Assembly: GCA_902728285.1 (NCBI GenBank) | Contig: CACVBU010000616.1 | Location: forward strand, 663,681-727,680 | Source of the DNA: Clytia hemisphaerica | Taxonomy: Eukaryota; Cnidaria; Hydrozoa; Leptothecata; Clytiidae | Length of the DNA: 64,000 nt | Direction: 5' to 3' | Shown here: positions 33,160 through 36,100 of the stretch, one piece after another | Position numbering within the stretch: the first letter of the stretch is position 1 | Layout of the letters: each line of letters begins with the position of its first letter | Notes under the pieces: generated by a model | Told to the model about the DNA's origin: nothing | What the model saw: only the letters and a program-made list of their open reading frames with translations | Databases searched by the model: none | Program-made: the position numbers and the translations under genes

Positions 33160-36100
33160 ATGATGAAAAGTATCATCTTTGCATTATGCATCGTTCTATT
33201 CATCATTCCTGAAAGCCATGGTCAACAAATTGATCCAGAACTGCTCAATAAACTCGCCCAAGTCTTAAACGCCAAGACACTTGAAGAGCTGCGATCAGGT
33301 TTGGTTGGCTTGTTGGATGATGAGAAATTGGATGGTCTACCCATAAACGATGCTTTCTCCAAGGCATTTGTTCGGACAACAGATTTAATGATTTTCTTAA
33401 GAGATGGATTTGATATGACCAAGGTCATTACAACTGCAATGTCAGGTGGTGATACTATGAAGGTTCTCATCGAGACGATGAATTTTGATGTTGTCCAAAG
33501 GTCATTGAATATTACTGAATTCTTCAAACAACCTAATGTTACAAGGTTGATACAGGAAAGTGGTGTCCAACCAGAGTTACTGGAGGTTGCTTTATTGAAT
33601 GTAAACATGTCGGGATTTTTTGGTTCTATAAAGCTTGGAGAAGTTTATAAACTCTATGGACCACTTATGAGTCAGAATCTGTCAAGCTCTGAGCAAGCTT
33701 TGGCACTGGTGAAGTTGATTGATACTCAGAAAATGGCTGGTAGTATACATTGGAATAATTTGAAATCGAATAAACATATTTTAGAGACTCTGAAGACGGC
33801 ACCAGGGCTAACTGCAGATCAAAAAGAACTTGTATTTGCTGCATTGCCAAGTTTAGATTTGGATCGGCTGATGACCAATGGTGTTAATATTGGGAAAGTC
33901 ATTGAATTATATCTTACTGGAAATGAAACTTTACCGGTTGCAATTTTACAAAACGCAGATGTTGATGTCGCATTGGGAGCACTTAATGTGACAACTTTTC
34001 TTCAATATCCAAATGTGACAAACATTCTTGATAACAATGATATTGATCCAAGATTTGTTCAACTTTTGAAACACGTTGATGATATGAAAGCTTTTGCACA
34101 GAGCTCAAACCTTGGCGAAATCATTCGAATCTACATCGATACACGCAACGAGACGACCAGAATCCCTCAACTCAAAACCGCTATTGCTAAAATCGATACC
34201 ACAACAATGGTCCAAAGTGTGAGATGGAGTGCTTTGCAACAAGATCCAGCTTTTGAGAGCCTGTTAAATGATTATGTACCTCAGTATGCAAAAACTATCA
34301 TGAAACTGGATTTGAACAAGTTAACCCAAGATGTTGATATCAAAGGCTTGATGGCTGAAGTATTAGAATCAGAAGGCAAATTCAGTATAATGTCGTTAAT
34401 AAAGTATGTCAAAATAGATGATTTCCTTAAAACATTGGATATAGGGCAACTGGTTCAAGATTTTTTAAACGCATCGACAGCGATGGTGTTGAGCAGGAAG
34501 TGTCAAGATGCATTTCTGGATATGACATTCCCAACACCGAATCTAACGGCAGAGAATATGGCTGGACTGAGAGCACTGGATACTTTAAATCATCCCATAT
34601 TACAACGTAAGAGCAAAGTTTTCTAATGTCTCAGAATGTCTTATAATAATCGAGAGTGGAGAGGAGCCATAAAAATAAATAAATTACAGTAAAACCTCTC
34701 TAATTTGACTTTTTTCTAACCGATAAGCTCTCTTGGACGCTGTTTGAGTATGAATAGGCCTTTAGGATGGCATTTGCAATTCTGCTTATCGACTTAGAGT
34801 GTGTCAAATGTAAGTTAAAGTGGTCCGCCCTGTATGGTTAGGTAACGGTAAAAAACTGAACGGTGAATTCCGAAAGTGTTATATTATGGAATATTTCAGA
34901 CGATTTGAAAAGGAACTCAGAAGCTACAAGTTCGGTTTTGTTACAAGCATGGGTCAAATGGGGGGGGGGTTATTGGGTTTATTGAGCCCTGCCTTAATAG
35001 CAATCACAATTGTGATTTTCGTAATATTTTGTTTAATTTCCAGTATTCGATTCATGGAGTAAGCTACCACCTGGTATTTTCCGTGGCAATCAAAGATGGA
35101 TGGGTGCAGTTGATCAATGTTCCAAAATTAAAACAGCTAAATATTGTATCGCCAATATGGATATGAGCAAATTGACTGGAGGAGCATTTGTAAGTTGCAA
35201 AACCATCATACGTACGACCCAAAATTTGGACTTCGAAATCGGACCCTTACAGCGCAGAGAACATTTTGCATAATTTGAGCAAATTTGAGCAATTCGAAAA
35301 ATCAAATTGGGGAGCTTGGAAAATATTCCCTTAAGGGCCGCACGTATGGTAGGTCCATACGTGCGGCATATTTACCTTGAGTGCTTCCCCTACCGAGCCT
35401 CTAAGATACTCTATTGTTGCGTTTCCAGGGTGTTGTTTATGACTCCATATTGTGAAAAACTACTCATTAATTTCAAAGCTCCCAAGGGACTGGATACAAA
35501 GCTGTCCTGGATGAGAAATGAAGCCACTTATTTCACATCCAGAACAGGGGACCCGTGTGGCTTGAACAAAGAATTTCTCAATACGGGGCAAATCTTAAGG
35601 CTTCACTATTACTTGAAGTTCCAACTCTAGCCCCTTTGGGCTTCAAACTCAGTGGTACTATGCTTTTTTCGTTACCAGGGCCACGATGCGATGTATGGTT
35701 TTTGTTTACCAAAACAATGCGACGAAAATGATGGACTAAACATTATTCAATTCTTTACTAAGGAATGTAAGTGAAGTACTATGAACGTTTTTTTATAAGA
35801 ACTTCTGAAATTTTTGAAGCCTTCGGATGTTCTTAACTTTTTTAAGTTTGAAGCCTAAAAATGTTCTTAACATGTTCTTATTTTCATCATTTTTCACAAA
35901 ACATAAAAAAATTGTTACATAATTCAAAGTGCTGCAATATCAGTTAATCTTTGAAATTTTATCTTATTGATTTGATTGTAATTTAGTTTTCTTCCAAATT
36001 TTTAAAATTAAGTCCAACAGCAGGTACAAAAGAAATTGAAGCTTGTGTCGAGGGAAAACTATTTTACGATATATAAGGGGTTACTTCAATGGTTTCTTTT

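Follow-up and report, generated by a model that had tools for sequence, protein, structure and literature searches.

On the plus strand of the 64,000-nucleotide (nt) stretch of Clytia hemisphaerica (hydrozoan) DNA analyzed here (G000:C432:663681-727680 of a 417-Mb assembly; hereafter the window), a gene for an NRF-6-like acyltransferase carries a long segment between its signal peptide and its NRF domain. As judged from its sequence, the segment is best described as a member of an undescribed family of variable-copy repeats in hydrozoan NRF-acyltransferases. Spliced by hand, the gene has 15 exons (33160-34606 through 44144-44251, in window positions) with GT-AG borders at all 14 introns. Database search and direct comparison showed its 1090-amino-acid (aa) product to be identical over its full length to a public C. 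hemisphaerica protein (P0002; 1090 aa) in NCBI, UniRef, and EukProt.

The start codon and signal peptide (residues 1-23; 33160-33228) were recognized by eye from a short basic start, a hydrophobic stretch, and small residues. The segment under study follows (residues 24-447; 424 aa; 33229-34500), is devoid of Cys, and gives way to the first Cys of the NRF domain, C448. The start of that domain fills the remainder of exon 1 (34501-34606) up to a phase-1 donor, GTAAGA. Exons 2-4 (35044-35189, 35679-35766, and 36176-36290; 35044-36290 overall) encode the remaining NRF domain and a Cys-containing stretch, and exons 5-15 (36869-44251) encode the acyltransferase-3 (AT3) domain and the stop codon. 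The matches to NRF (PF20146; residues 471-550, beginning in exon 1; 45.4 bits versus a cut-off of 27) and Acyl_transf_3 (PF01757; residues 665-1073; 69.7 bits versus a cut-off of 31) represent the sole Pfam families found in the whole protein.

Upstream on the same strand lies paralogue 1 (P0005, 736 aa; 21118-31822), which is free of the array. It was placed exon by exon using tblastn (residues 1-732 matched, with 100% identity over exon 1, which starts at 21118), and about 15 residues separate its signal peptide, as seen by eye, from its first NRF Cys. An initial annotation, made from the letters of the DNA, had proposed some 440 additional residues reaching to about 34540, all within one exon of about 1.4 kb. 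The segment is real, has no counterpart in paralogue 1, and does occupy a single exon (33160-34606, 1447 nt), but its length had been slightly overestimated, with 424 residues ending at 34500. The splice from exon 1 to 35044 is an in-frame GT/AG junction of phase 1, and the public model, with its identical product, agrees with it.

The size of exon 1, compared with 80-193 nt for the other exons, and the lack of a Pfam match to the segment would suit a chance fusion of the gene with some unrelated domain or coding exon, or a faulty gene annotation. We regard this as highly improbable in view of the identical public model and of the same repeat lying ahead of the NRF domain in two further proteins, P0013 and P0004. 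Intron 1 is also placed and phased alike in three genes, namely P0013 (A/TG TTG GAT GCT TGG, with the slash at the junction), paralogue 1 (A/TG TTG GAT TCA TGG), and the window gene (C/TA TTC GAT TCA TGG). In P0001, a close relative from another source and a different species, the frame likewise stays open up to this splice site and ends just beyond it.

The repeats are visible within the array itself. Self-comparison at an offset of 159 residues gave a best ungapped segment scoring 104 over 87 residues, 21 of them identical, versus 55 for the best of 300 shuffles. The three motifs aligned earlier by eye are present exactly: LNITEFFKQPNVT / LNVTTFLQYPNVT, LGEVYKLY / LGEIIRIY, and IDTQKMAGSIHW / IDTTTMVQSVRW. 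The two units about 159 residues apart that had been aligned by eye are thereby borne out as a spacing, but each 159-residue block proved to contain two units of ~77-79 residues. The array as a whole comprises about five units of ~77 residues, of which units 2 and 4 are degenerate.

From the N-terminus, the array opens with a degenerate cap or half unit (residues 24-97; 33229-33450), helical in a weak structural model, whose residues 69-104 pair with 227-262 at an offset of 158 (score 45). Unit 1 (residues 98-177; 33451-33690) scored 28.2 bits at residues 98-161 with a profile built only from the P0013 repeats, and 82.9 bits with an iterated profile that includes the window sequence. The iterated profile matched the degenerate unit 2 (residues 178-256; 33691-33927) weakly, at 3.5 bits. 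Unit 3 (residues 257-336; 33928-34167) scored 14.0 bits at 261-324 with the P0013-only profile. At the 159-residue offset, unit 1 pairs with unit 3 and unit 2 with unit 4. The diverged unit 4 (residues 337-412; 34168-34395) was matched at 338-427 by a profile of single-module proteins (14.8 bits), and the terminal half unit before the NRF domain (residues 413-447; 34396-34500) at 377-433 by the P0013-only profile (14.9 bits). P0013 and P0004, too, have a half unit directly ahead of their first NRF Cys.

An inner symmetry of ~38 residues within the repeat unit is suggested by its sequence. Profiles of the first and second halves cross-matched in P0013 and P0004 at 5.5-20.2 and 7.1-18.2 bits and gave lower values in P0002 (0.3 and -0.8; 10.1 and 3.7 bits). 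The best shuffles reached 9.6 and 11.5 bits (1928 and 2000 of 2100 scored), and the best reversed sequences 9.5 and 8.7 bits. The many N-glycosylation sites claimed for the segment were recovered: residues 24-447 hold nine sequons against 3.2 expected, with nine or more occurring in 0.28% of 5000 shuffles. Some of them are repeated 159 residues apart (N117/N126 and N276/N285).

The view that the segment resembles no known domain withstood comparison with Pfam-A and NCBIfam, neither of which gave a match at cut-off, and with sequences in the PDB, whose matches were all rejected. No Pfam-A family, ARM, HEAT, and TPR included, reached cut-off over the arrays of P0002 and P0013 or the N-termini of P0004, P0006, P0012, and P0017; NCBIfam, which covers bacteria and archaea, gave no match to the window segment. 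NADH-UOR_E and Dzip-like_N over this segment, and five Pfam families over the P0013 array, stayed below cut-off. Among the PDB sequence matches, RecA-fusion chains (best E 0.0011) are tandem fusions with no stretch passing alone, and a fungal synthase had an E value of 0.42. The entry "8vd6 CAP REPEAT" (E 2e-5) sums five near-identical copies of ~33 residues at 3.5-9.7 bits each, none of which passes alone; our impression is that it reads like a designed repeat. A likeness to mesothelin/stereocilin-type superhelices is conceivable, with no Pfam match to such a family. AlphaFold models of the window array (predicted local distance difference test, pLDDT, 48.2; predicted template modeling score, pTM, 0.31) and of the P0013 repeats (pLDDT 57.3; pTM 0.50) are both weak, though nearly all-helical with short helices, in agreement with the helical look noted earlier for the segment.

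To collect relatives, residues 450-1090 were used as query, returning 630 matches; the best 120 of these, P0002 among them, together with P0001 formed a set of 121 proteins. NRF-acyltransferases from sponges, corals, molluscs, sea urchins, and a centipede are found among these best 120 of 630. More than 240 residues precede the aligned NRF start in four of the 121 proteins (P0002, P0001, P0013, and P0022), and the long N-terminal lead of P0022 reads as an extra acyltransferase copy. P0001, on a 2154-base contig, and the window protein are 82% identical between residues 24 and 482 and differ there by a single internal indel. P0013 (EukProt TCONS_00021359) is a second Clytia NRF-acyltransferase, encoded on another contig, with about seven units of ~75-79 residues; its best ungapped self-matches scored 67, 65, and 60, versus 51 for the best of 60 shuffles. 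Its whole array, also without Cys, lies in one exon of ~1.9 kb (exon 1; G000:C448:116088-118014). The public P0013 model begins within the array, and the genome frame adds, in the same exon, 93 residues upstream with a stretch that by eye resembles a signal peptide. The public model thus probably lacks its N-terminus.

The two arrays were connected by reciprocal profiles. Over the 121 proteins, the P0013-repeats-only profile scored P0002 at 52.7, P0004 at 51.0, and P0001 at 48.8 bits before dropping to 10.0, and the P0002/P0001-only profile scored P0013 at 53.0 and P0004 at 16.9 bits before dropping to 8.4. The 121 proteins reversed gave at best 21.9 and 9.3 bits, respectively. By repeat profile, the window array reached 61.1 bits, versus 12.4 for the best shuffle (1782 of 2000 shuffles scored) and 26.8 for the reversed array. 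In direct comparison the window and P0013 arrays are 17-21% identical in three BLAST pieces. When the P0013 exon-1 array was searched against the 417-Mb genome in six frames (E<=10), it returned itself and window positions 33415-34245 (E 4.9e-6; three candidates scored); window exon 1 returned itself alone at E<=0.001 (four candidates scored). At the protein level, queries with exon 1 and with the entire window protein, which require shared 5-residue words such that distant non-hydrozoan relatives could escape, yielded only P0001 and P0002 among the 7998 and 7990 candidates scored. P0013 was missed by both and was reached through the enzyme part, among the best 120 of 630 matches.

Shorter versions of the same region occur in other members of the set. 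P0004 has about 1.5 units between signal peptide and NRF domain. A single-module profile built from the N-termini of P0006, P0009, P0012, and P0017 next matched P0004 (19.6 bits), P0002 (17.0), P0013 (14.0), and P0001 (12.3) among the 121 proteins, with reversed sequences at 8.7 bits or less, and its best match in P0002 and P0013 fell on the NRF-proximal repeat. These weak matches suggest that each of the four proteins probably carries one array-related module. P0006 shares the transcript naming of P0013. The initial annotation's description of the segment as a novel domain added to the window protein consequently gave way to a repeat also present in other Clytia NRF-acyltransferases: P0013 has a longer array, and P0009, P0012, and, going by its naming, P0006 probably have one module each.

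In a tree of 23 rows, the array- and module-bearing proteins fall in a 15-row clade (support 100/99) that also includes paralogue 1 and seven other proteins. The window protein has the longest end branch (1.69), and the placement of both long array branches is unsure. Holding P0002 and P0013 together was not rejected (approximately unbiased test, p-AU 0.39), nor was adding P0004 (0.162). Grouping all seven rows that bear a module to the exclusion of paralogue 1 was rejected (0.028), which would mean that paralogue 1 lost the module or that it was gained more than once. Most likely a module already present was amplified, and paralogue 1 may have lost it; the simplest reading would be array growth within a pre-existing exon 1, starting from the module adjoining the NRF domain. 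The intron that P0009 and P0012 have between the module and the first NRF Cys, absent from P0002 and P0013, advises caution on growth within exon 1, and exon shuffling may have played a part.

We tentatively propose, at somewhat less than an even chance, that the array is an extracytoplasmic arm that captures the acceptor molecule and brings it into place close to the active site of the predicted membrane acyltransferase. This proposal broadens the speculative lipid- or ligand-binding reading of the initial annotation. According to three studies, cytosolic acyl-CoA enters the AT3 core through a pore in the membrane, and its acyl group is made available on the extracytoplasmic side, where fused domains aid with acceptors (PMC9833829, PMC12423673, PMC7448272). 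By analogy with these AT3 enzymes studied by others, acyl-CoA would enter the core pore of the window protein from the cytosol, and its acyl group would be offered across the membrane. A location of the array on the extracytoplasmic side would follow from its sequons, from the signal peptide ahead of it, and from the Cys-rich NRF domain to which it is joined. The array would have grown in exon 1 and, as the copy-number series suggests, arm length or the number of binding surfaces may differ between paralogues. An acceptor-binding arm on an active enzyme is favored here over a spacer, a docking site, and a non-catalytic receptor.

Several points weigh against this proposal. In the core, position 671 is occupied by Lys (Lys671) but by Arg in all other aligned proteins (109 of 109), and F721W and S724G alter FFxxSG at two positions, both of which are conserved in 107 of 108 others, which makes full enzyme activity of the window protein uncertain. 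In the P0013 array, sequons are as frequent as expected (5 versus 4.8); enrichment is therefore not a property of the module, and glycosylation sequons, to judge from the two sequences, are a feature of the window paralogue rather than of the repeat. As both structural models are weak, they demonstrate no elongated arm and no groove. Reversed arrays outscored shuffles, so generic helix periodicity contributes part, though not all, of the profile signal. Finally, the genome searches with the arrays did not return the one-module genes, which reveals them as insensitive, and diverged copies may have been missed.

The three substitutions, with the longest end branch in the tree, would fit a receptor or transport protein that relies on the array for its function while its acyltransferase core decays. 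We consider this distinctly unlikely, since the core retains H682, both RXXR arginines (R752 and R755), and F720 and G725 of FxxxxG, and the protein agrees with the alignment at 71 of the 80 near-invariant columns; a shifted first Cys in the alignment accounts for one of the nine mismatches. (The core alignment comprised the set without P0001, P0003, P0010, P0015, P0020, P0022, P0036, P0039, P0054, P0120, and P0121.) The R/K-X10-H motif is present as K671-X10-H682 in the first core helix. A source on bacterial AT3 proteins defines both R/K-X10-H and RXXR, permits Lys at the first place, and describes the Ser of FFXISG as tolerating change without loss (S45A) (PMC7448272). A second source assigns FxxxxG to the second core helix and gives Lys as usual at the corresponding core place in two related families (PMC12423673). 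With the core motifs kept and Lys allowed or usual at that place, the window protein is favored as a putative active enzyme.

The array could instead be a passive spacer that binds nothing and lifts the NRF domain or keeps it a set distance away from the membrane or glycocalyx. Variation in copy number (~7, ~5, 1.5, probably 1, and 0), the low identity between the two arrays, and the wealth of sequons in the window array are all compatible with such a role; the 82% identity and single indel between the segments of two species seem tighter than a spacer would need, and we judge a spacer unlikely. Alternatively, a secreted partner that carries lipid or yolk might dock on the array, given that in Caenorhabditis elegans NRF-6 and NDG-4 belong to the same pathway as NRF-5, a secreted lipid-binding protein. 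No lipid-binding family in Pfam or NCBIfam matches the segment, and worm NRF-6 and NDG-4 are not known to carry this array; we regard docking as just as improbable as a non-catalytic receptor. Returning to the acceptor-binding arm, a bolder form of it is that a hydrozoan Cys-free extracellular repeat, growing and shrinking in one exon (0, 1, ~5, and ~7 copies), provides a repeat-number code for acceptor choice via the reach or valency of the arm; this we hold to be doubtful.

Other features of the window and genome were recorded along the way. A 49-bp minisatellite (14879-16221; 27.3 copies, 95% match) has long open frames in all three plus-strand frames, which for this reason are not evidence for a gene. 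Two arrays with a 176-bp period (3456-4179 and 5387-5865) appear to share one satellite unit. An ionotropic glutamate receptor-like frame (48967-49884; PF10613, E 1.3e-22) has nearby plus-strand frames that may be further exons. On the minus strand, one open frame encodes a 500-aa MBOAT acyltransferase (56491-57990; E 2.7e-25), which we take to be Hedgehog-acyltransferase-like. AT3 genes seem expanded in Clytia, with at least 37 exon-level matches on contigs C527, C920, C170, C857, C448, and C432 (38 of 140 candidates scored), many of them on C527 and on C448, the contig of the P0013 gene.

Among the paper titles listed by literature searches (20 of 5,168 for the largest result), none concerned this array or cnidarian NRF-6-like proteins, and the available portions of the literature examined gave no account of acceptor recognition by NRF-acyltransferases. 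What is new here is an undescribed variable-copy repeat; the enzyme bearing it is of a known kind. Like the NRF-6-like acyltransferases (NRF-6/NDG-4 of C. elegans, and OAC), the window protein has an NRF domain with conserved Cys and an AT3 core with K/R-X10-H and RXXR; unlike them, it has a 424-residue Cys-free array ahead of the NRF domain as well as Lys671, F721W, and S724G. Clytia P0013 shares with the window gene the repeat unit and its placement, a single giant exon 1, the phase-1 intron 1, and a Cys-free array. It differs in having ~7 clearer units rather than ~5, no sequon enrichment, and the core Arg, Phe, and Ser intact, with about 20% identity between the arrays. P0004 and the one-module proteins P0006, P0009, P0012, and P0017 resemble P0002 in that a module of helical appearance follows the signal peptide and precedes the NRF domain, but they have no array. 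The repeat family is missing from Pfam and is free of Cys at a predicted extracytoplasmic place, and the Clytia series of 0, probably 1, ~5, and ~7 copies offers a natural copy-number series bearing on whether the pre-NRF region sets substrate choice. In the bacterial OafB/OafA AT3-SGNH fusions, an AT3 core is likewise joined to an extracytoplasmic domain thought to handle the acceptor; the SGNH domain is catalytic, whereas the window array precedes the core, looks helical, and displays no recognized catalytic motif.
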